DNA from: Streptomyces sp. NBC_00569
GTDB lineage: Bacteria > Actinomycetota > Actinomycetes > Streptomycetales > Streptomycetaceae
NCBI RefSeq assembly: GCF_036345255.1
Contig: NZ_CP107783.1
Coordinates: 1,674,001-1,738,000 of the forward strand
DNA length: 64,000 bases
Direction: 5' to 3'
In this document: one piece after another, positions 30,678 to 42,600 of the stretch
How positions within the stretch are numbered: position 1 is the stretch's first letter
Layout: every line of letters begins with the position of its first letter
Program-made: the position numbers and the translations under genes
Notes under the pieces: model-generated
The model's database searches: none
Seen by the model: only the letters and a program-made list of their open reading frames with translations
Told to the model about the DNA's origin: nothing

Positions 30678-32880
30678 GGGTGGTACCGGTGGCGTTCCCC
30701 GGGTCCGGCTGCCCGTCGCCTACCGGGCGGCGGCCCGCCGCTCCGCGCGGGTCACCGTGGCCGCCGGCGCCGGGTTCTACCTGTTCCTGTACGGCTTCGG
30801 CTCGACCGAAGCGGCGACCTACGCCCTGTTCGCCGCGGTGTCGCTCGCGGGACTGTCACACATCCCCGGGACGGGCCGGCAGCGTGCCGCCGTGGTGGCG
30901 CGACTGCTGCCGGTCAGCATGGTGCTGATCACCGTCGGCACCTACCTGTCGGTGCAGACCTGGACCGCGACGGTGGGGATGCTGGTGATCGGCTTCGCGC
31001 TGGCCTTCTCCGCGGTGGGCGGCCCACGCCCGGCGGGGGCCGCGCCCGGGCTCCAGCTGATGTACATCCTGCCGTCGTTCCCGCCCTACGACCCCGGCTC
31101 ACTCGGCGCCCGGCTGGCCGGAGCCTCGGTGGGCATCGTGCTCCTCGTGCTCGCAGAGATGTTCTTGCTGCCGGATCCGCCCACCGTCCCCTACCGGGAG
31201 CTGGCCGCGCGGGCCGCCGACTGCGCCCGGCGGTGTGCCGAGGAGCTGACCGCGCCGCCGTACGCGGTCACCGCCCGGACAGCGCAGGAGGCCCAGGTCG
31301 CCAGTACCTCACTGCGGTCCTCGCAGGTACCGGAAGCCGAACGGCCGGCCGGGCCGAGCGTGCGGGCCCGGGGCCTGGCCCACACCGGCCTGGCCACTCG
31401 CACCCTGCTGGCACGGCTGACCACTCCCCCGCAGCCGGATCCCGGGCCGGCCGAGTCCGATGTCTGGCTGGTCGTACCGCGCGCGGTACGGGACACGGCC
31501 CGCGAGACGGCCGACCGCCTGCGGGGCCGGGCTACCGCCGCCGATGACGCGCACGCCGAGCTGCTGCGGGCCCGTACCGCCTTGGCCGCCGGCGCGGAGG
31601 CGGACGCCTCGCCGGCCGCGCTGCGCCGGCACGCGGCGGTGCTGGAGCTCGCGGACGCCGCACTGGCGATGTCCACGGCAGCCGCCATCGCCGTACGGGG
31701 CCGGGCTGGCGCGGCACAGGCGGGCCCGGGCCGGTTCTGGTACGCCCGGATGAACACGCCGCAACTGTGGTGGCGGCGGATGGTGGGACACGCGAGCAGC
31801 CGGTCAGTGTTCTTCCAGAACGCGGTACGGATCAGCCTGGCCCTCGCCGCGGCCCGCGTGATCGCGGGGGTGGACACGCTGCCGCACGGCTTCTGGGTGC
31901 TGCTGGCAACCCTGACCCTGACCCGGACCACCGTGCGGGAGACCCGGTCGACGGTACGGGTGGCGCTGACCGGGACTCTGATCGGCGCGCTGATCGTGGC
32001 CGGGCTGTTCACGCTCGTCGGGACGAATATCGCCGTGTACGCGGGCGTGCTGCCACCCCTGATGCTGATCACGTTCACGCTGGGGCCGGTCAAGGGCATC
32101 GGCTGGGCCCAGGCGATGTTCACGCTGGTGGTCGCCCTGGCGTTCGCACAGCTGGCGCCCGCGACCTGGCAGCTTGCCGAGTTCCGGCTGCTGAACGTAC
32201 TGACCGGCAGCGCGATCGGCGCCGTCTTCGGGCTGCTCGCCTGGCCGCGAGGTGCCCACGACGAGCTGCGGCGGTCGATGGCGGTACTGCTGCGCGGTGC
32301 GGCCGAGAACGTGGTGGCGACCACGGCCCAGCTGACCGCGGGCGGGGTGCGGGCGCCGGTGACCGCCGCGCCGGGACACCGCTCGCTGCTGCACTCGCTG
32401 GGCATGGCCGAGGCAGCGTACGCGCAGTTCCAGAGCGAGCCGAAGAACCTGGCCGCCGCCCGCCCCGGCCAGGATGCACGAGGCTCAACAGGCCCCCATG
32501 AACCCCCCGGCCAGGACGGCCCCCAGGACTGGCAGGCAACCCTGATGGCCGCCCACCACACCCTGTGGGGAGCCGACCGGCTGCTGGTCCCGCCCGAGCG
32601 GACCTTCGCACCGCCCCTGGAGCTGGAGCCGACAGCGGCAGTGTCCCGCCTCGGAGACCGCGTCGCAGGGCGGATGCTACTGGTGTCGGCCCGGCTCGAT
32701 CCGTGCGTCGACAACCCGCACGCCCCCGTGCCACTGCGAGACCCCGACTTCGACGGCTTCGCGGTGGAGCCACCGGGCGCGCCGCGGGTGTACTACGCGG
32801 CCGTCTCGTGGCTGGACGCGCTGATGACGGACCTGGAGCGGATCACCGGCGAGGCCGAATCCGTGTCCCGCGGCCGCTGA
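30676..32880 (+). CDS. FUSC-family membrane transporter (aromatic-acid exporter-like)
   Basis: The 734-residue protein has two blocks of about five to six membrane helices: residues ~30-165 (VTVAAGAGFYLFLYGFGS through VLLVLAEMFLLP) and ~370-540 (VFFQNAVRISLALAAARVI, PHGFWVLLATLTLTRTTVRE). They are separated by a ~200-residue Ala/Arg-rich cytoplasmic helical region and followed by a ~190-residue tail. The segment PHGFWVLLATLTL followed by an R-T-x-x-R-x-T loop is the fusaric acid resistance/YccS signature. Such proteins export aromatic acids or relieve membrane stress. The start is uncertain: ATG 30676 has a weak site, and the upstream in-frame extension looks non-coding. Confidence 0.8.
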   Translation: MGGTGGVPRVRLPVAYRAAARRSARVTVAAGAGFYLFLYGFGSTEAATYALFAAVSLAGLSHIPGTGRQRAAVVARLLPVSMVLITVGTYLSVQTWTATVGMLVIGFALAFSAVGGPRPAGAAPGLQLMYILPSFPPYDPGSLGARLAGASVGIVLLVLAEMFLLPDPPTVPYRELAARAADCARRCAEELTAPPYAVTARTAQEAQVASTSLRSSQVPEAERPAGPSVRARGLAHTGLATRTLLARLTTPPQPDPGPAESDVWLVVPRAVRDTARETADRLRGRATAADDAHAELLRARTALAAGAEADASPAALRRHAAVLELADAALAMSTAAAIAVRGRAGAAQAGPGRFWYARMNTPQLWWRRMVGHASSRSVFFQNAVRISLALAAARVIAGVDTLPHGFWVLLATLTLTRTTVRETRSTVRVALTGTLIGALIVAGLFTLVGTNIAVYAGVLPPLMLITFTLGPVKGIGWAQAMFTLVVALAFAQLAPATWQLAEFRLLNVLTGSAIGAVFGLLAWPRGAHDELRRSMAVLLRGAAENVVATTAQLTAGGVRAPVTAAPGHRSLLHSLGMAEAAYAQFQSEPKNLAAARPGQDARGSTGPHEPPGQDGPQDWQATLMAAHHTLWGADRLLVPPERTFAPPLELEPTAAVSRLGDRVAGRMLLVSARLDPCVDNPHAPVPLRDPDFDGFAVEPPGAPRVYYAAVSWLDALMTDLERITGEAESVSRGR

Positions 32881-33078
32881 AGCGAGTCGCAGAAGGCCGT
32901 GAACCGGGCGGTCGAGGCGCGGCGCCGACGGAGGCAGTGCGGCGCGGGGCACGGCGCGTGCGGTGACGTCGGCGGCGTACGCGTCGGTCATCCATCCGTC
33001 CTGGCGCAACTCGGCATAAGTGGGCGAAGGATGCGCGGTCTCCAGGTCGCAGCCGGGTCGCGCGACGGCGCCCGACTC

Positions 33079-33104
33079 TTGACTTGCTCCTCGGGCTGAA
33101 GCCC
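33079..33104 (+). repeat. Orphan IS200/IS605-type terminal sequence
   Basis: This 26-base stretch matches 24 of 26 positions of the end of the IS200/IS605 element at 54245-54270 and contains the hairpin GGGC-TGAA-GCCC. No transposase gene is nearby. It is a solo end left after excision or partial deletion. The rest of 32881-33490 has no convincing gene. Confidence 0.5.
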
Positions 33105-33490
33105 TGCCATCCGGGAGTTGCTGGCGCAGCAGTCCGTGTGCGGTCCGGGCGACGACTGTCACGTGGGCGGCATTCATACCCGAGTGCGGCGCCGCCGCGG
33201 CGTGAGCGGCCTCGCCGTGGCAGGTCAACTCGAGGCGCCGGGAGGCCCGGGAGCTGCTGCCGATCTCGTCGCACCGAGAGGGTGCGCCATCATCGCAACT
33301 TGCTCGTCGTCGAACGCGCCGCCGCGCAGCAGGTGCACCTTGCCGCCGCCCTCCTCTGGGCGCGGGCCGGCGCCGACAGCGCGATCCACGAACAGCGGCA
33401 CTCATTCTGCCCCGTAACGGATGCATCGCTCGGCGGGTCCAACGCTGACGTGGCGTCGGCGAGTGCGGCAGGCAGAGCGGATGCCCGCCG

Positions 33491-34261
33491 TCACACGGTG
33501 GCGGCGACTCCCGCCGTGGTCTCCACTTCGAGCAGCGAAGCGCTGTGCCGCTCGGCCTCGAAAGCGGCATGGCCGCCGCGCAGGCCGAACAGCCGCTTGC
33601 TGAGCAGGATGTACAGCACGGCGAGCACGTTGACGGTCAGGGTGGCGATCTTCACCCAGCTGACCTTCTCGGTGAGTTCGTAGATCTCCAGGGGCAGGAA
33701 GGCAGCTGTCGCCACCACGGTCAGGTACTCAGCCCAGCGCCTGGCCCGCCAGAGGCCGACACCCTCGACGATCTCGATCAGTGCGTAGACCAGCAGCGCC
33801 ACGGCGACGATGACCAGTGTGGAGTGCTTGTAGTCGAACGTCTTCTGGATGGTGTCCACGACCGGCGAGTGGTCCAGGTCGTAGTGGAAGTGCCGGAAGA
33901 CCGGGCGGAAGACGTCGAGGTACTCGTCGAAGAACTGCCGGACCGAGTTTTGACTGTTACTGAACTTCCAGACCGCGATCGCCACCAGCACGATGAAGAC
34001 TCCGCGCACTGCCCGTTCGACCGCGAGGAAGCGCAGGATGAACAGGTCTCTCAGCGCCTTTCCGCGCGGCACCAGAGGCGCGTCTTCCGCAGGGCCCGAA
34101 CCGTGCGGCGCGCCGAGCGCGAAGTCCCCGCAGCGCAGACAGCGCCAGGCTTCACCCAGCCCGGTGTCGGCCCGCAGCCGCTCGCGCAGCCCCTGCTCCT
34201 GAGGCGCATAGGTGAGGTGACCACGGCGCGCACAGGTCCGCCGGTCCCAGTCGATCTTCAT
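33491..34261 (-). CDS. DUF2127-family membrane protein
   Basis: The 256-residue protein begins MKIDWDRRTCARRGHLTYAP, with a short Cys-containing domain (two CxxC-like pairs, RTCARRG and CLRCGDFA). Four membrane segments follow (FIVLVAIAVWKF, LVIVAVALLVYALIEIV, LTVVATAAFLPLEIYEL, TLTVNVLAVLYILLSKR). The phrase YALIEIVEGVGLWRARRWAEYL is diagnostic of DUF2127. ATG 34261 has AGGAAGG upstream; an upstream in-frame start is unsupported. Function is unknown; the Cys-rich N-terminus may bind metal. Confidence 0.82.
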   Translation of the reverse strand: MKIDWDRRTCARRGHLTYAPQEQGLRERLRADTGLGEAWRCLRCGDFALGAPHGSGPAEDAPLVPRGKALRDLFILRFLAVERAVRGVFIVLVAIAVWKFSNSQNSVRQFFDEYLDVFRPVFRHFHYDLDHSPVVDTIQKTFDYKHSTLVIVAVALLVYALIEIVEGVGLWRARRWAEYLTVVATAAFLPLEIYELTEKVSWVKIATLTVNVLAVLYILLSKRLFGLRGGHAAFEAERHSASLLEVETTAGVAATV

Positions 34262-34448
34262 CGCCTTCCTCTCTGTGGCGCCCCGGCCTCCTGAGCACGA
34301 TCGCATCAGCGGAGACTCCAACGGCCATCACTCTGGTTCCCGCCGCGGGTGGTCAACCCGGAGGGTGACATCCAAAGCCGCAGGCCGGCGACTACGCAGT
34401 CTGCGCCGCGCGATACCGCTGGATGAACCTCATTCGTATCCGGGCCGG

Positions 34449-34967
34449 TCAGATGATGTGGCGCACCACATAGGCGGCTCCCACCCTTTCTGCCTCGGAG
34501 GAGTCTGCCTGGATCGCAAGACTCGGCCCGGCCGTAGTGAAGTCGAACCTGTTCGTCATCGGCTGCGTGCAGTCGACGCGCTTGGCTCTCTTGGCGGTTC
34601 CTGAGACGGCCGTGAAGGTGACCGCGCCCTCCCCTGCGCATGCCACCTCTATCCGCAGGACGGTGCCGGGCTTGACGGTCTCGTCCAGGTTCTGTCCGGG
34701 TATCGCGAGGGAGCCGGCCGAGATCAAGCCTTCGTCGTCTGAGTCCAGGCGATCCGTCCTGTGAAGCAAATCGCGGGCCTCCTTGTCCAGCCGCTCCCGG
34801 CCGGACCGGGACCTCGGCTGCGCTGTGGGTGCGGCGGTGGAAGTCGCCGCCTTGTGAGAGTGCGGAACCTTGGATGTCGCGGGCGAGCCAGAACAGGACG
34901 TTGTCATGCCGGTAAGCACCGCAACGGCAGCCAGAGCTTTGCCGATGTGGTGGGTGAATCTGTACAT
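34449..34967 (-). CDS. Putative lipoprotein
   Basis: The 172-residue product begins with a basic N-terminus, a hydrophobic stretch (GKALAAVAVLTGM) and Cys25 in a weak lipobox (MTTSC), then a Ser/Thr/Pro/Arg-rich linker. The remaining ~110 residues form a beta-rich domain with two Cys (IEVACAGEG and RVDCTQPM) that may form a disulfide. Export and lipid anchoring are likely; function is unknown. The ribosome-binding site before ATG 34967 is only a G-run. It stands alone. Confidence 0.7.
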   Translation of the reverse strand: MYRFTHHIGKALAAVAVLTGMTTSCSGSPATSKVPHSHKAATSTAAPTAQPRSRSGRERLDKEARDLLHRTDRLDSDDEGLISAGSLAIPGQNLDETVKPGTVLRIEVACAGEGAVTFTAVSGTAKRAKRVDCTQPMTNRFDFTTAGPSLAIQADSSEAERVGAAYVVRHII

Positions 34968-35063
34968 GGGATCCCCCGGAGTGCACTCAGAAGCCAGCAG
35001 GTCAAAACCAGGTGATCATCTCCTGTGAACAGTCGTATCGCCCAAGCAATCTGGCCACTGGCA

Positions 35064-35156
35064 CTGAGGGCTGTTTCTTAGATCATGTGCTGAGCCTGAT
35101 GGCGAGGGCTGCGAGGGTGACGGTGCCGAGGTAGATGTAGGCGCGTTTGTTGTAGC
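35064..35156 (-). mobile_element. IS5-family insertion sequence remnant (one end plus transposase C-terminus)
   Basis: Reading the minus strand, the last residues NKRAYIYLGTVTLAALAIRL of a common Streptomyces IS5-family transposase are followed by the typical outer end with the sequence GGGCTGTTTCTTAGATCATG on the plus strand (35064-35083). The rest of the element is missing: sequence changes abruptly at about 35156 into a toxin-like reading frame on the other strand. It marks the deletion that removed the start of that gene. Confidence 0.65.
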
Positions 35157-35945
35157 CGGCATCTCCGAAGCCGCCGCGGCCACAGCCACCGCGACCATCG
35201 TCGACCTGGCCGCCACCCTGGGCGTGACCGTCACGACCGAGATCGCCACTATCGCGGGCACCACCCTGGCCACCGCGGCCATAGCCGGCATCGAATCGAT
35301 CACCGTCGACCTGGCCGTCACCCAACCCGTCGCCATGGCCACTGGAGAGAGCAAGGGCCTCAACCTGGACGAGGCCCATCAGGCCCTCCTCTACGGCGCC
35401 CTCACCGGCGGAGCTCTCGGCGGCGCAGGCGCCTCCTACCGCGCCGCGCAGAACGCGGGCGGAATGACCGAACTACTCGGCGGCATACGCATACCCGGCT
35501 TCTGACCACAAGTCGCCATCGCGGGCGGCGAATCGACAAGCCTCGAAGACCTCGGACTGCTCATCCAGGGCGATGGGGAGCCCAGCGCCTGGCCGCGGAG
35601 CAAGCGCAAGGGGGCACAGAAGCCGAAGTACAGAAGTGACCTCGCCGGTGATGAGGGGCAGAAAGGAGCCCACACCATCGACCGGCACGTCGAGAAGACA
35701 GACTGCGAACTGCGTGCCCGACTGCGCTCCGACAAGCAGATCGGAGGTGGCTCCAGCTTCATCAACGAGCAGGCGGCCCAAGACCTCACCGACCGGGCCA
35801 TGATCAGGTAACAGACCAAGGCGAAGCGCTGGCTGGAGAAGACCCCAAGACGGAGCTGGAGCTCTACGTCGGCTACGGCCAGGAGACCACCGGCCGTAGC
35901 ATGTCCTGCGACGACTTCGTCCGGGGCGCAGGCCCGCAAATGTGC
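35157..35945 (+). pseudogene. Decayed polymorphic toxin with an RNase A-like C-terminal domain
   Basis: The frame opens at the IS scar and reads VDLAVTQPVAMATGESKGLN, followed by LDEAHQALLYGALTGGALGG, a segment typical of actinomycete polymorphic-toxin proteins. It stops at TGA 35503-35505, continues in the same frame with GAHTIDRHVEKTDCELRARL and GGSSFINEQAAQDLTDRAMI, and stops again at TAA 35809-35811. After a frameshift YVGYGQETTGRSMSCDDF follows. HxxxRHV-K-T-D and the TGRSMSRDD-like stretch are hallmarks of the bacterial RNase A-like toxin tip. Two stops, one frameshift and a missing N-terminus make it non-functional. Confidence 0.6.
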
Positions 35946-35959
35946 ACAAGGTCTTCGTC

Positions 35960-36095
35960 CCTCACCTCGGACAGCGGTCTCGACCAAGCCACGCGCATCC
36001 TCGGCCTGAGCGTCTATCCGCCCGACGGCGTCTCTCTCCGTCAGTGGCTCACCGACCTCCAGGACATCCTCTCCCACCACCGCCCGCCCACCTGA
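35960..36095 (+). pseudogene. Remnant of a CdiI-type immunity protein
   Basis: The last ~40 codons before the stop at 36093-36095 read RILGLSVYPPDGVSLRQWL followed by TDLQDILSHH. This resembles the C-terminus of small CdiI immunity proteins (pattern LGxxYxPxxDGLSxxxWLxxVxxxL). It lies directly after the RNase A-like toxin remnant, where the immunity gene is expected. Its N-terminal half is not readable. From 36096 to 36369 no gene is supported. Confidence 0.4.
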
Positions 36096-36369
36096 CGGCC
36101 AGGTCATCCCCGCCGCAGGCCATTTGCAGCCGAGCTCCCGAGATGCCCGCCCCAATGTTCATCGCCCTCAATCGGACGGGCATCGCGCCGTGGTGTGGGC
36201 CGGGTGCACGATCGGGCCGTGTTACCCGGCCATGTCGGTCAGGGCCCGTTTGGTGGCGCCGATCACCGCGTCAGTGGCTTTGCGGGCCATCGTCGACTCT
36301 GCGGGGAACCTGGGCCGGAAGCCGTCCACCGCCGCAGCTCGTGGTCGCGGCCCCTCCCCGGCGTGAAAG

Positions 36370-36415
36370 CCGGAGCATCCTCGCAAGAAGGACCGGAGCA
36401 TCCTCGCGAGAAGGA
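36370..36415. repeat. Two tandem 23-bp repeats downstream of rpoA
   Basis: CCGGAGCATCCTCGCAAGAA plus GGA (36370-36392) is repeated at 36393-36415 with one mismatch. It is a simple tandem duplication in the non-coding stretch between the toxin remnant and the end of rpoA. No function is evident. Confidence 0.6.
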
Positions 36416-36499
36416 GGTGACGGGCCCGCGGATGCCGACGCACCGCTGACCCGCCTCCTCTGTCCTCCCGGCTCGCTCGCAGCCCGCTCAGCGCAGCGT

Positions 36500-37522
36500 T
36501 CAGTACTGCTCGGTCTCCACGAACCCGGTGTCGCCGTCGTCCTCCTCGCCGAAGGCGTCGGCGGCAGCGGTCGGAGCGAATCCGGGCGGGCTGTCCTTGA
36601 GGCCCAGACCCATGCCGGCCAGCTTCGCCTTGATCTCGTCGATGGACTTCGCACCGAAGTTGCGGATGTCGAGGAGGTCCGCCTCGGAGCGGGCGACGAG
36701 TTCACCCACGGAGTGGATGCCCTCGCGCTTGAGGCAGTTGTACGACCGGACGGTGAGGTCGAGGTCCTCGATCGGCAGTACGAGGTCGGCGGCCAGGGCG
36801 GCGTCCGTGGGGGACGGGCCCATGTCGATGCCCTCGGCGTCGATGTTCAGCTCGCGGGCGAGACCGAACAGCTCGACCAGGGTCTTACCGGCCGACGCCA
36901 TGGCGTCACGCGGACGCATGGCCTGCTTCGTCTCGATGTCGACGATCAGCTTGTCGAAGTCGGTGCGCTGCTCGACACGGGTCGCCTCGACCTTGTACGT
37001 GACCTTGAGGACCGGCGAGTAGATCGAGTCGACCGGGATGCGCCCGATCTCCTGACCGACCTGCTTGTTCTGGACGGCGGAGACGTAGCCGCGACCGCGC
37101 TCGACGGTCAGCTCCATCTCCAGCTTGCCCTTGCCGTTGAGCGTGGCGAGGACGAGGTCGGGGTTGTGCACCTCGACACCGGCCGGGGGCGCGATGTCGG
37201 CGGCGGTGACCAGACCCGGGCCCTGCTTGCGCAGGTACATCACGACCGGCTCGTCCTGCTCGCTGCTCACGACCAGTTGCTTGATGTTCAGGATGAGGTC
37301 GGTGACGTCTTCCTTGACGCCCGGCACGGTGGTGAACTCGTGCAGGACACCGTCGATACGGATGGACGTGACCGCCGCACCCGGGATCGAGGAAAGAAGG
37401 GTCCGGCGCAGGGAGTTGCCGAGGGTGTAACCGAAGCCCGGCTCCAGCGGCTCGATCACGAACCGGGAGCGGAACTCGTCGACGACCTCTTCGGTCAGGG
37501 ACGGACGCTGAGCGATGAGCAC
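36500..37522 (-). CDS. rpoA: RNA polymerase alpha subunit, outside the ribosomal operon
   Basis: The 340-residue protein is full length and very close to the Streptomyces RpoA. The N-terminal dimerisation domain has [21 protein letters not shown] linker rich in acidic residues leads to the C-terminal domain with [20 protein letters not shown], the RSxNxLKR DNA/UP-element-binding face. GTG 37522 has GGAGG at good spacing. Normally rpoA lies in rpsM-rpsK-rpoA-rplQ; here upstream is a methyltransferase-like gene and downstream there is no rplQ. It is therefore probably a second copy. All key residues look intact, so it could assemble into RNA polymerase. Confidence 0.95.
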
Positions 37523-37652
37523 GAGGTATTGCCTCCAGTGGTTTGGCGCCCGCTATGTGACACCGTGGTCACCACGAAGGGTACGGGCGATCGGGGCGAT
37601 ACGGCTCGCGACGAGACCGAACCGCCCGACTCCGCCCGTCTGACGGCCAGTC

Positions 37653-37686
37653 GTCGGGCCCCGCTTTCGCAGGAGCGGAGCCCGAC
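37653..37686 (-). terminator. Hairpin between the methyltransferase-like gene and rpoA
   Basis: GTCGGGCCCCGCT (37653-37665) pairs with AGCGGAGCCCGAC (37674-37686) with one mismatch and an eight-base loop. It follows the methyltransferase-like gene by ~30 bp and precedes the rpoA start by ~130 bp. The two genes may thus be transcribed separately and rpoA may have its own promoter. Confidence 0.55.
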
Positions 37687-37716
37687 GGTCAGCTGCTCCC
37701 TACTTCTGGGCGTCAG

Positions 37717-38544
37717 TCATACGGAGGGAGGCCGGGACTGGTAGAGGCGGGTGTAATAGCGGCCTTCCGCCTCCAGTCCAGTGGGGTCGTCGCCGGCACG
37801 GAGCACCTGCTCGACGGCGTATCGCTGTTCCGCCGCGCTCGTGAACATCCGCTGGGGATAGGTTCGTGAGGAGTCGGTGGTGGTGATCAGGCCGTGGGCT
37901 TCCAGTTCGGATATCACGGGCCCGTAGGGGACGGTTCGCAGGACGAACGCGCTGACCCAGATCGGCTCCCGTTGACACTCCAGCAGCGCCTGGAAGGTGC
38001 GGCGGGTGATGTAGCCGACGCCTCCCGTGACCGTGATCAGGCCGGTGTCCGCGACGGCGCGCCGCAACCGGGGGCTGGGCGGGTGGTCTTCCAGGTTCTC
38101 GGCATAGGCCTCGTCGAGCAGGCCGACGGCCAGGGCGTACTGGACGGCGTTGTCGGCCGTGTCGATCCCGATGACCGGGGTCGCGTCCGCGCGGCGCCGT
38201 GAGGCGTAGAACTTCTTGTCCTGTTCGATGAGTTCGGTCGGCGTGAGGGCGTCGACCTCGGGGCTGGCGTAGTGCTCGTACAGCTCGGCCAGTGTGACGT
38301 GATGGTTGAGGAGAGCGGCGTTGAAGCCGTAAGAACAGCAGAGGTCGAGGACGGTGACGGGGTCGTCGGTGCTGCCGGCCGCGGAGCGCTCGGTGCGGGT
38401 GCGCCGGAAAACATCCTGGGCTTGGTGCGGTATCTCGTACTCCAACGGGGCGAGCCGGCGGACGTAGGCGCGAGGATCGGGCTCGTTGTAGATGTCGTCG
38501 AACCGAGTCTTCCCTGATGCGGCACTGACAGAGCCTGCGGCCAT
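37717..38544 (-). CDS. Methyltransferase-like protein of unknown target
   Basis: The 275-residue protein has a Rossmann-like SAM-binding pattern: VTVLDLCCSYGFNAALLNH (motif I region, with Cys-Cys where Gly-x-Gly is more common), PVIGIDTADNAVQYALAVGL (motif II) and DTGLITVTGGVGYITRRTF (motif IV-V region). The C-terminal 70 residues end with GRYYTRLYQSRPP. The Gly-poor motif I makes true SAM use uncertain. The N-terminus (TRFDDIYNEPDPRAYVRRLA) looks real, and ATG 38544 is preceded by GGAGG. Position just upstream of the displaced rpoA on the same strand is suggestive but not proof of a link. Confidence 0.7.
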   Translation of the reverse strand: MAAGSVSAASGKTRFDDIYNEPDPRAYVRRLAPLEYEIPHQAQDVFRRTRTERSAAGSTDDPVTVLDLCCSYGFNAALLNHHVTLAELYEHYASPEVDALTPTELIEQDKKFYASRRRADATPVIGIDTADNAVQYALAVGLLDEAYAENLEDHPPSPRLRRAVADTGLITVTGGVGYITRRTFQALLECQREPIWVSAFVLRTVPYGPVISELEAHGLITTTDSSRTYPQRMFTSAAEQRYAVEQVLRAGDDPTGLEAEGRYYTRLYQSRPPSV

Positions 38545-39553
38545 GGGGGTACCTCCGCGGAATCAGGACGGGTGGCTGGAAAGAGACCTCTCTCGGACCG
38601 GTTGCACCGCTCGGTCGGCCTCGCGGCGGGAACCGGGGGTGCCCGCGCCGAAACTGATCGGGCCGGCCGACGGCCGACCGAGGGCGCGATGTCACCTACT
38701 CACAACCCGTGCAGAAAACTTGTGTCCCGTCAGGACTGGCCAATTTGACCTGGCGAACCACCAGGATGGGGCTGACGGCCCGCAGACAGCTCTAGCTCTC
38801 TCGTGACGTTCGGATATCCGTTCGGCGGTAGGAACGCGCCGGGGATTTCTTCGACTTCCTGTCCGGGAACTGGCCGAATGGTCGGGATGCCACGGTGGAT
38901 CATGCCGTGCGCGTCCTCAAGGGGCTCGGCCACCGCGGTATCCGGTGGGCCTGCCCTGGCGGTGCCTGCCTATCGCACCTCTATCGCACCAGGTTGCCGC
39001 GCCGCCGCGTGGGGAGGCGCGGGCTTATTCGTCACAACACAATACCCTCGTACGTCTCGTTCGGCCTGCTGGTCACCCTGCTCGGGCTGGGCGTGGGTGT
39101 GCCGGCGCCGGCACATTCCGCAGAGCGCGATTTCGTCGTCGTGCGCAGACCCGGGTAACTATCTGCAGCGAGCGCACGAGTGTGCGCTGGCCCAGTTCCC
39201 TTTTGAAGGCTGCGGACGCGGCTCGGCTCCGGCGAGCGCGGCGCGGGAGGCGTTGACAGGCACCTCGAAGTCTGACCGGCTCCCGGTCGACGGCGTTCTG
39301 ACCGGCGCGGGCACTGAGATCGGACGAGGCGCACCGCTGGGCGATTGCGCTGGAAAGGATTTTCCGTCCGAGGACGAGTCCGGCTCACCTGGCCGCGTAT
39401 TACCGGCGCGGATGCTGTGGAGCCGGATGGGTGACAGACTGAATATCCGGTTTCGGCGGTCTGCCGAGTCCACCTGGGGCGTGTCCTGGCCGTCCGCTCC
39501 GTTTTGCATCCCAGCAGCGATCGATCGGTTCGCTGAGCAGATGGGAACCGACC
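38545..39553. other. About 1 kb without a supported gene
   Basis: Several open frames exist but none has a ribosome-binding site plus family resemblance. A hydrophobic stretch SFGLLVTLLGLGVGVPAPAH at ~39058-39117 on the plus strand resembles a signal peptide or tail anchor. It stops soon after, which suggests gene debris. The AT-richer part 39020-39065 could hold a lost promoter. Confidence 0.4.
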
Positions 39554-40201
39554 ATGACGTCTGAATCGCCGTACGCACCGGACGAAACCGCGCTTCTGGT
39601 CGTCGACCCGTACAACGACTTCCTTTCCGAGGGCGGCAAGCTGTGGCCCCGAGCGAAGGAAGTGGCGGAAGGCGTCTCACTGCTCGACCACATGGGCACC
39701 ATGCTCGCGACGGCCCGCAGCCAGGGCTTTCGCGTCTTCATCGTGCCCCATCACCGGACGACGCCGAGCGACTACGTCACATGGGATTACCTGTCCCCGA
39801 CACAGCAGCGCATCGTGACACAGCAGACCTTTGCCGAGGGCAGCTGGGGAGCCGAGTGGCACCCCGACTTCCAGCCCCTCGAGGACGAGCTCGTCATCGG
39901 CCAGCACTGGGCCTCGAGCGGTTTCGCCAACACCGACCTCGACTTCATGCTCAAGCAGCATCACATTCGGAAGATCCTGCTGATCGGTATGCGGGCCAAC
40001 ACCTGTGTGGACACCACCGCACGCTTCGGTCAGGAGCTGGGCTACCACGTCACCCTCATCCGCGACGCCATCGCCGCCTTCAGCTGGGAGGAAATGACAG
40101 CGACATTCGAACTCAACGCGCCCCTGTACGCCCACGCCGTCCTCACAACAGAAGAGTTCGTCGACATCGTGAACGGCGGGGCCGGCAAGGGCTCCCCATA
40201 G
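39554..40201 (+). CDS. Isochorismatase-family cysteine hydrolase
   Basis: The 215-residue enzyme belongs to the isochorismatase-like hydrolases. TALLVVDPYNDFLSEGGKLW contains the catalytic Asp, and GMRANTCVDTTARFGQELGY holds the nucleophilic Cys. VIGQHWASSGFANTDLDFML stands where a catalytic Lys often sits, but a branch with HW..SGFxNTDLD is common. The reaction would be hydrolysis of an amide or vinyl ether; the substrate is unknown. ATG 39554 follows GGGAACC. Downstream to 40464 there is no gene, so it is probably monocistronic. Confidence 0.83.
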   Translation: MTSESPYAPDETALLVVDPYNDFLSEGGKLWPRAKEVAEGVSLLDHMGTMLATARSQGFRVFIVPHHRTTPSDYVTWDYLSPTQQRIVTQQTFAEGSWGAEWHPDFQPLEDELVIGQHWASSGFANTDLDFMLKQHHIRKILLIGMRANTCVDTTARFGQELGYHVTLIRDAIAAFSWEEMTATFELNAPLYAHAVLTTEEFVDIVNGGAGKGSP

Positions 40202-40464
40202 TGCCCAATCCCCGGCAGCCAGAATTGGGTTGGCGGGCGCCGAGTTGGGCAAACCCAGTGGCTCACCTACCTGCACATCCCCGACGTGCGTAGGAGCGCG
40301 GCATGAATTGCGCAACCGCGAGGCCCGCCGCTGCCCATGGCATGAAGAGGTGAGCGCCCACGGCGGCAGCACAACAGGAGAACGAGCGCCCGGAGGAAGC
40401 GGAGGCGATCATCCGGGGCGCGCGGAGGGACGTACGGAACCCCTGTTCTGAAGGTGGTGGCCCT

Positions 40465-41223
40465 GTGAATGGGACCGATGGAGGAGCCGGTACAGCGCAC
40501 GGGGGGCTGGCCGGGCAGACGGTCGTGGTCGTGGGAGGAAGCGCGGGCATTGGTCTGGAGACCGCGCGACAGGTGCGTGCAGCCGACGGTGAGCTGGTGC
40601 TCGTGGCGCGCAATGCCGAACGCCTCAAACGGGCGGCGGACGAATTGAACCCCCTGAGCACGGCCGCGTTCGACGCCCAGGACACCGACCGCCTGGAGCG
40701 CTTTCTCGGAGAGCTGCCCGGGCAGGTCGACCATGTGATGGTCACGGCCGGCAGCCCGTCGTACACCCCCCTCGACGACCTCGATCTGGCCGAGGCCGGG
40801 CGTGACTTCGGCGGGCGTATCGCGATGATGCTGGCGGTGGCGCGGGCCGGCCGGGGCAAGGTCAGGGCCGGGGGAACACTGCTGTTCATCGGTGGCACCG
40901 GCGGCCGGCGCCCCGCGCCCGGGATGGCCGTGATGGGCGCCCTCACCGCGGCGCTGCCGGCACTGACCGCCAACCTGGCACTGGAGGTCGCTCCGGTCCG
41001 GGTCAACCTGATCGCGGCCGGATTCGTGGACACGCCACTGTCGGCCTCACTCCTTGGCGACCAACTCGAGTCACGGCGGGAGGAGTTGAGGAAGTTGCTG
41101 CCCATTGGCCGGGTGGTCGGACCGGCGGATGTCGCCGCCCTCGCGGTGCACATCATGGTCAACGGCGCCCTCACCGGTGCCACGTACGACATCGACGGCG
41201 GCCAACAACTCGTCGCACACTGA
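40465..41223 (+). CDS. Short-chain dehydrogenase-like protein lacking the YxxxK catalytic pair
   Basis: The 252-residue protein has a clear SDR Rossmann fold: VVVVGGSAGIGLETARQV (cofactor glycine motif), VLVARNAERL, and a C-terminal GALTGATYDIDGGQQL (the usual end ...DGG). At the catalytic site LLFIGGTGGRRPAPGMAVMG replaces the expected S...YxxxK, with neither Tyr nor Lys. It may be a non-catalytic cofactor-binding protein or use other residues. GTG 40465 follows GAAGGTGG. The upstream region is non-coding. Its neighbours (VOC protein, isochorismatase) suggest small-molecule detoxification. Confidence 0.8.
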   Translation: MNGTDGGAGTAHGGLAGQTVVVVGGSAGIGLETARQVRAADGELVLVARNAERLKRAADELNPLSTAAFDAQDTDRLERFLGELPGQVDHVMVTAGSPSYTPLDDLDLAEAGRDFGGRIAMMLAVARAGRGKVRAGGTLLFIGGTGGRRPAPGMAVMGALTAALPALTANLALEVAPVRVNLIAAGFVDTPLSASLLGDQLESRREELRKLLPIGRVVGPADVAALAVHIMVNGALTGATYDIDGGQQLVAH

Positions 41224-41456
41224 CCGCTTTGCCCTCGGTCGGCCGTGGACCGCGCGGACTGCCGCAGGCAGCACCACCTCGTGCGGCGCGTCACGTGATC
41301 CGCCGCCCGCGAAGTGGACGAGCGTCCACCTGCGGCCTGATCGAACGCTCGCCGGAACACGGCACAGCCGGAGGGCTTAAGGGCGTCGCCACGCCGGGTG
41401 TGGACACAGGGGCTCGCAACGAACCGGGATCCCCTTCGAGACAGGAGGCGCAAGCC

Positions 41457-42074
41457 ATGGACATGAAACTCGAGATCGTCGTAGTGCCGGTGTCCGACGT
41501 CGACCGAGCCAAGGACTTCTATACGGCGCTGGGCTGGAGACTCGACGCGGACATAGCCCCCGACGAGGATTTCCGGGTGGTGCAGGTGACACCGCCGGGT
41601 TCCCCGGCGTCGGTCATCTTCGGCACATCCGTCACCGATCGGGCCCCGGGCTCGGCTCAAGGTCTGTACTTGGTCGTCGACGACATCGAGGCGGCCCACG
41701 AGGAGCTGATGCGGGGCGGCGCCGACCCGAGCGATGTGTTTCACGACGCCGGCGGCGTCTTCCACCACGCCGGCGATGACACCCGGGTGCCCGGCCCTGA
41801 TCCACAACGCGGCAGCTATGGCTCCTTCCTCTCGTTCAGCGACCCGGACGGCAACGGCTGGTTCCTGCAGGAGATCACCACACGGCTTCCGGGACGGCTG
41901 GACCCCGCGACCACATCGTTCGCCTCGGCCGAGGACCTGGCGAGCGCCCTACGGCGGACCGCAGCGGCTCACGGCGAGCACGAGACGCGCATCGGCGCGG
42001 AGGACCCGAACTGGCCGGACTGGTACGCGCGATACCTGGTGAGCGAGCAGGCCGGGACGGAACCGCCGTCGTGA
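41457..42074 (+). CDS. VOC (glyoxalase/bleomycin-resistance fold) protein
   Basis: The 205-residue protein starts at ATG 41457 with AGGAGG eight bases upstream. EIVVVPVSDVDRAKDFYTAL and FLSFSDPDGNGWFLQEIT are the first and last beta-alpha elements of a two-repeat VOC domain. GLYLVVDDIEAAHEELMRGG is the centre. A ~55-residue helical tail (FASAEDLASALRRTAAAHGE to WPDWYARYLV) follows, as in a common actinomycete subgroup. Metal-dependent detoxification or ring-cleavage is possible; the substrate is unknown. Confidence 0.85.
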   Translation: MDMKLEIVVVPVSDVDRAKDFYTALGWRLDADIAPDEDFRVVQVTPPGSPASVIFGTSVTDRAPGSAQGLYLVVDDIEAAHEELMRGGADPSDVFHDAGGVFHHAGDDTRVPGPDPQRGSYGSFLSFSDPDGNGWFLQEITTRLPGRLDPATTSFASAEDLASALRRTAAAHGEHETRIGAEDPNWPDWYARYLVSEQAGTEPPS

Positions 42075-42194
42075 GTGGACGGATGCGCGGTACTCGGCCT
42101 GACAAGACGCCGCAGGGTGTCGGCGGCGCCGACGCGGTCTCCTTTCATTCGTGGCCGTCGGGGCAGCCGGCGTAGCCGTTGATGCCCTCGGCGG

Positions 42195-42600
42195 GAGTGT
42201 CCAGGCCGACGCTGCGAGGCGGTCGCCTCCACCGTCTGGGAGATCCTCCAGGAGGATGGGATCGACCCAGCGCCGGAACGCGCTTCCAGAGCAACTGGGC
42301 GAATCTCCCGCGCTCCCAGGCCGATGCCCTGCCAGCGTGCGACTACCTGGAGACGGTCACGTTGTCCGCGGCACGCCTGCACGAGTTCGCGCGGTGATCG
42401 AGCATGCCAACCGGGCGGATCCAGATCCTCGGCGCCACCGCGCACCCGAGCGCCTCCGGGCGACGCAGACAGCCAAAAATCTCGCCATGGACCTCGAAAA
42501 CGCCGACTGCCGACCACGGTTCCTGGTCCGGGACGCAGCAGCAACCCCTGCGCAGACGGAACATCCGTGCAGACATGACCGGTCGAAGCAGCCTTGAGAT
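42195..42600 (+). pseudogene. Integrase-core (rve) transposase remnant
   Basis: Broken frames encode TVWEILQEDGIDPAPER, FLRSQADALPACDYLETVTL, RLHEFAR, VIEHANR and KNLAMDLENADCRPRFLVRD. In order, they match the middle of a common Streptomyces integrase-core transposase (..VWEILHREGIDPAP..., ..ACDFFHVDTV..., ..FIEHATR..., ..NLAMDL...FLIRDRD). Several frameshifts and loss of the ends make it a fossil. Confidence 0.55.

Follow-up and report, generated by a model that had tools for sequence, protein, structure and literature searches.

A complete gene for a second RNA polymerase alpha subunit, here called rpoA2, lies on the minus strand at positions 36500..37522 of the window, by which we mean the whole stretch of 64,000 nucleotides of Streptomyces sp. 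NBC_00569 DNA that was analysed. It starts with GTG and encodes 340 amino acids, and its product is full-length, scoring above the Pfam cut-off for all three alpha domains (the N-terminal domain (NTD), the insert domain and the C-terminal domain (CTD)) and reaching 654 bits against the NCBIfam equivalog PRK05182.1-4, for which the cut-off is 434. The open reading frame, the ribosome binding site (RBS), the Pfam domains and the equivalog score thus bear out the first-pass annotation, in which the gene had been described as an intact, full-length rpoA. When the whole genome (10,324,489 bases in 1 contig) was searched for another rpoA, two matches were found, the window copy and G000:C1:4516428-4517447(-), and the two proteins are 96% identical. 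The gene order at the latter, at 4.516 Mb, is rpsM, rpsK, rpoA, rplQ (names assigned from translations), and since the housekeeping rpoA sits in this ribosomal block the window gene is indeed, as had been claimed, a second rpoA outside the ribosomal operon. A wider duplication of RNA polymerase is ruled out because rpoB and rpoC each gave a single match in the genome. That the window gene is the sole rpoA displaced by rearrangement is ruled out by the housekeeping rpoA in the ribosomal block of a single-contig genome, and an assembly artefact is ruled out, or at the least made very unlikely, by the single contig and by the recurrence of this gene type in many other, independently assembled genomes; we give these two readings together hardly any probability. 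Start aside, the window RpoA2 differs from the housekeeping alpha at 12 residues (H89Q, V196I, A248V, E253D, E255D, V297I, A307G, D316A, A326E, D327E, A330G and A332T), with two differences within residues 2-230. The genes differ in the regulatory region and, mildly, on the CTD surface and in the tail.

Upstream of rpoA2 and on the same strand, at 37717..38544, is a gene for 275 amino acids that had been called methyltransferase-like. The name stands to the extent that some relatives of this frame are named 'SAM-dependent methyltransferase' or 'methyltransferase type 12' in their source records, but the frame itself has no Pfam, NCBIfam or PHROG match. A 2.6-kb block (36467-39092) that holds rpoA2 and the methyltransferase-like gene is present in the distant genome G122 at 85%. 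A methyltransferase-like gene is found upstream of rpoA2 in the loci L070 and L167 too, and in L251, from another genus, a convergent 57% relative of it adjoins a different second rpoA. The 'toxin graveyard' that had been proposed downstream was not confirmed, as the open frames 34449-34967 and 35224-35505 have no Pfam or PHROG match. When the window was compared with G161, the nearest relative in our tree (98.1% identity over 2601 nt of housekeeping flank), it was found that rpoA2 lies in a variable 9.35-kb segment (32881..42234, unstranded) which has no counterpart at the corresponding place in G161, where window positions 32880 and 42235 are only 346 nt apart, the right anchor of this comparison being short (144 nt, 86%). 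G161 has a second rpoA some 114 kb from this place on the same contig, and its entire match to the window covers 36451-37808, so that the shared 3' flank is short (36451..36499, minus strand). No tRNA that might mark an insertion site and no Rfam match were found within the window. A phage origin was rejected: there was no PHROG match, 0 viral contigs carried the leader pattern described below, and the matches to rpoA in the phage collection were distant (1 record at 60-80% and 22 below 60%).

The leader of rpoA2 (37523..37600, minus strand) has a GGAGG RBS at 37532-37536 and a 31-nt core at 37555-37585, and it probably contains the promoter. With up to 2 mismatches allowed, the core, GTCTACGGCGTCA, was present in 27 of 31 extra copies versus 1 of 79 housekeeping leaders, a count for which the extra copies were found independently of the leader and in which about one genome was counted twice. 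In the window copy the core has 3 mismatches and the wider block is clear, and a search of the whole genome with a 31-nt form of the block, tolerating 3 mismatches, gave a single occurrence. The block that is conserved upstream of the extra copies is about 75 nt long, and the flank beyond it is not conserved in loci without the Tudor-like gene described below. A sister branch that starts with ATG has the same leader core, behind ATACCGTGCGG. The leader is not wholly private to rpoA2, since it is homologous to the housekeeping rpsK-rpoA leader, although diverged from it, and it seems that the duplication took rpoA together with this leader, which then changed in a paralogue-specific manner. A consensus fold of the rpoA2 leader gave nothing convincing. 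The consensus of the rpsK-rpoA leader (n=75) has an 11-bp inverted repeat, CGGGCGGTACG ... CGTACCGCCCG, directly before TACCCTTG, which is possibly a regulatory hairpin; the housekeeping leader of the window's own genome looks unlike this consensus.

The rpoA2 family and its probable movement

At least two rpoA matches were obtained in 39 of 199 genomes of the genus, 36 of which were re-searched, and an extra rpoA was judged present in 33 of the 199, the window's own genome included, although in five of them (G021, G032, G084, G097 and G146) the copies are fragments at contig ends; most sampled species are without rpoA2. Outside the 33 are the ambiguous G115 and G075, also G001 and G198, which have fragment matches (79% and 81% complete) from the original search alone, and G025 and G060, in which the second match is merely weak and CTD-like. 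The weak matches in the last two (G025:C1:6804063-6804266 and G060:C49:1633-1851; 44% and 50% identity) lie inside other open frames and are possibly stand-alone CTD-like proteins. Most of the housekeeping copies examined encode one identical alpha. The full-length extra copies that were compared, 30 from 27 genomes plus the window copy, show recurrent changes, namely the start codon (GTG in 28/31 and ATG in 3/31), H89Q, A248V, E255D, I269V, V276L, L284M, M304L, A307G and changes in the acidic tail, and a two-residue deletion at 321-322 is frequent. The window copy was placed in this family by its leader core with 3 mismatches, its GTG start and its CTD signature, in which A248V, E255D and A307G are present and I269V is absent. 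When named GTDB contigs were searched for the leader-plus-GTG pattern, 76 stretches were found, 74 from Streptomyces, one from Actinacidiphila and one from an 'Actinobacteria bacterium'; of the 46 named copies with a frame closing inside the stored stretch, 4 are interrupted, which leaves 42 intact. In G232:C4:759167-804112 (L244 and L245), from another genus, two extra rpoA genes of the ATG branch lie less than 40 kb apart. A recent local duplication is ruled out for the window copy because its leader, start and 3' end are family-like. Independent local duplications may have happened elsewhere, in L087 and L088 (both in G175) and in L249 and L251 (other genera), whose leaders are 5-6 mismatches from the leader core.

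Among 97 merged loci, a flanking block of at least 300 nt at a similar distance was common to groups of two or three loci at most (12 such groups upstream and 5 downstream); these 97 include at least one probable duplication of a locus (L065 and L163, whose contigs are equally long), and they count as one the similar loci L159 and L165, which come from different records. On a tree of 72 genomes made from housekeeping flanks the 27 carriers of the gene need at least 14 changes, 13 of which are forced by well-supported branches. The carriers are nevertheless clustered, with 14 changes versus a shuffled mean of 21.9 and 0 of 500 shuffles as low, and because of this clustering some of the descent of rpoA2 is vertical. 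Between the window genome and G161 the housekeeping genes are 97.6% identical in nt 700-950 and the second copies 91.6%. The gene was also found on 21 Streptomyces plasmid records. In the eight that were examined, linear and circular, the leader core was present in 8/8 with at most 1 mismatch, two being of the GTG type and six of the ATG type, and in the six with gene tables no ribosomal-protein gene was seen in the displayed stretch, these tables being incomplete. On one 130-kb linear plasmid a terminal-protein gene is some 1.2 kb away from rpoA2, and insertion sequence (IS) elements are near some plasmid copies. The sequence common to rpoA2 copies extends some 110 nt beyond the gene on its upstream side and a few tens of nt on its downstream side, and no element ends were recognised there. 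Genes like rpoA were seen as well in a Tsukamurella plasmid record (80% identity) and in 12 records from Clostridioides difficile, about 97-150 kb in size (48%) (H63 and H71-H83); these may be real or may be pieces of chromosome.

A gene for a 73-aa protein lies divergent to rpoA2, within 650 nt of its start, in 22 of the 94 loci with enough flank (L086, L077 and L128 among them) and 3.7 kb from it in one further locus. The C-terminal half of this protein is similar to the UvrD1/PcrA Tudor domain (9dci_A, E = 2.9e-5) and also to the end of an open frame in the window's genome that we take for PcrA, and its matches to Pfam CarD_TRCF_RID and PcrA_UvrD_tudor are below the cut-off. In PcrA the PcrA/UvrD Tudor-like domain is described as binding RNA polymerase (PMC5397179); there it is part of a helicase, whereas the 73-aa relative is free-standing. 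Tudor-like relatives occur in 195 of 199 genomes, the PcrA-type match included, mostly away from rpoA2, and when 30 stand-alone Tudor-like loci were checked rpoA2 adjoined in two (L204 and L231). This is the sole family that recurs near rpoA2 in many loci and it is absent at the window locus, so a conserved partner gene for rpoA2 is ruled out; in the loci carrying both, the Tudor-like protein is a possible functional partner. In L119, L128, L086 and others a conserved short frame, about 65 codons with ...TNPFQAPDFGEDE..., lies behind the Tudor-like gene, roughly 450-740 nt upstream of rpoA2, and judged by eye it seems to start at ATC.

Probable gene conversion, selection and the C-terminal domain

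When the 27 copies with their own housekeeping gene in hand (L089 excluded) were each compared with 73 housekeeping genes, that of the same genome was nearest over nt 1-700 in 19 of the 27, the mean of 2000 shuffled trials being 0.9 and the maximum 6. Over nt 700-950 it was nearest in 11 of the 27 (shuffled mean 0.8, at most 5), and since similarity within a genome is above chance here too, the conversion-like resemblance extends in some genomes beyond the 5' part. Identical runs between second copies and the housekeeping gene are up to 770 nt long. The window copy has 49 differences from its own housekeeping gene, 16 of them within nt 1-700 and the other 33 at position 738 or later, with a dS of 0.049 in the 5' part versus 0.298 in the 3' part. 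Its ends are family-like and its middle is local, a pattern that agrees with gene conversion but not with a fresh duplication. Selection was examined with dN/dS in 600 random pairs per group, using the 56 usable second copies of the 97 loci, L079, L087-L089 and any copies of insufficient length, with interruptions or ambiguities or with a different N-terminus having been dropped. For the two parts of the gene the median dN/dS was 0.059 and, in the 3' part, 0.097 in second copies versus 0.022 and 0.026 in housekeeping copies. Selection on rpoA2 is therefore purifying, and it is weaker than on the housekeeping rpoA, because these ratios are 2.7 to 3.7 times those of the housekeeping gene and 4/46 copies are interrupted. 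The first-pass annotation had explained the near identity to the usual protein by a recent copy or by strong selection. A recent copy fails as the whole reason, as the gene belongs to a multi-species family with its own leader, start and signature, whereas purifying selection does contribute; the near identity is owed largely to conversion-like patches from the housekeeping gene together with this selection.

The numbering of the Streptomyces alpha CTD is that of E. coli minus 6 by alignment. Eight CTD positions (259, 262, 263, 288, 290, 292, 293 and 296 in Streptomyces), which we take to be DNA contacts, are unchanged in all of the 56 usable second copies; in one plasmid copy there is a K292R change at one of these presumed contacts. 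E255D is present in 20/56 and E253D in 8/56 second copies, and these positions, 255 and 253, align with E. coli 261 and 259, presumably sigma and activator contacts. The recurrent changes are conservative and are not uniform across the family. The suggestion that a second alpha gives an alternative promoter preference or tolerance of an inhibitor thus found no direct support; the changes of E to D at 253 and 255 and those in the tail may have a tuning role. Because the CTD contacts are unchanged and residues 2-230 differ at two places only, RpoA2 would be expected to dimerise and enter the polymerase like normal alpha.

Possible roles of rpoA2

What we consider probable, from sequence comparison, is that rpoA2 is an intact member of a scattered and in part plasmid-borne Streptomyces family with a remodelled leader, and that its likely role is to provide additional, interchangeable alpha free of ribosomal-operon control. 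The leader would drive expression of rpoA2, and its product would enter RNA polymerase as a homodimer or in a mixed dimer. Conversion from the housekeeping copy would create the patches in rpoA2 and keep the assembly domain of its product compatible with the polymerase of each host, plasmids would move the gene between strains, and the small changes that the CTD and tail have undergone may adjust contacts with sigma or activators. Supply and timing are, however, a likelier benefit than such tuning. A bolder reading, which we hold only tentatively, is that of a mobile alpha gene traded by plasmids and chromosome arms, where conversion would match the assembly domain to a new host while the gene's own regulatory and C-terminal parts retune transcription, the window copy being a chromosomal capture.

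In our judgement a separately controlled supply of alpha is the likeliest role, a specialised promoter preference comes second and a functionless passenger third. A specialised alpha, in which the changed CTD and the acidic tail would give the RpoA2 polymerase other promoter, sigma or activator preferences, draws on the concentration of changes in these two regions, on the faster 3' part seen in dN/dS and on E255D and E253D, which align with the sigma and activator contacts assumed above; yet the changes are conservative and differ across the family, and the presumed DNA contacts are all kept, which makes this reading unlikely. Somewhat more doubtful is a passenger spread by plasmids and arm rearrangements and kept intact mainly by conversion from the housekeeping gene. 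Its irregular presence among genomes, the clear conversion-like patches and the few interrupted copies would be expected of such a gene, but 42/46 copies are intact, the leader and RBS are conserved where the further flanks are not, and dN/dS stays far below 1 even in the 3' part, in which the dS between the window copy and its own housekeeping gene is 0.298. That RpoA2 is a protective alpha, resisting an inhibitor, a phage protein or a toxin that acts on normal alpha, strikes us as quite improbable: no biosynthetic or toxin gene is a conserved neighbour across the loci and no recurrent change falls at the tested contact positions, and in its favour stand the scattered single-gene distribution and plasmid carriage, as with resistance genes, and the analogy with the duplicated rpoB of Nonomuraea (PMC5431353). 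In the part of that account available to us the Nonomuraea gerenzanensis rpoB is likewise a naturally duplicated gene for a core subunit of RNA polymerase, also in an actinomycete, but it is another subunit, and resistance and development are indicated there.

Two rpoA genes in one Streptomyces genome have been known since 2011, when S. avermitilis MA-4680 was listed among two-rpoA genomes and more cases were expected (Mukhamedyarov et al. 2011, PMC3294249). As here, one rpoA is in the ribosomal operon and one is elsewhere, and the second was called fairly recent; the portion of that paper available to us is without a leader, gene conversion, genus-wide spread or plasmid carriage, and the comparison is with the published description alone, no S. 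avermitilis record being among our matches. The alpha1 and alpha2 genes of Francisella, in the same source, also lie one inside and one outside the ribosomal operon. There the NTDs have diverged and the heterodimer alone assembles well, whereas the NTD of the window RpoA2 is nearly identical to that of the housekeeping copy, so a subfunctionalised pair of the Francisella type is not indicated by sequence. Within the literature that was covered, which leaves out most subscription journals and is seen in part, no published work on a second, paired, duplicated or converted rpoA in Streptomyces or actinomycetes was found that treats the rpoA2 family, its leader, the conversion or the plasmid carriage.

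Core RNA polymerase genes serve as markers of vertical descent, and in a 2026 Streptomyces pan-proteome paper, as far as its available part goes, rpoA is among the conserved, vertically transmitted genes (PMC13118837). Typing based on rpoA, and assembly as well, would be complicated by an rpoA2 that relocates, travels on plasmids and swaps sequence with the housekeeping gene; several draft genomes have an rpoA split between contigs. The family is also a natural system in which to ask why a cell would maintain a second source of the subunit with which the assembly of RNA polymerase begins.
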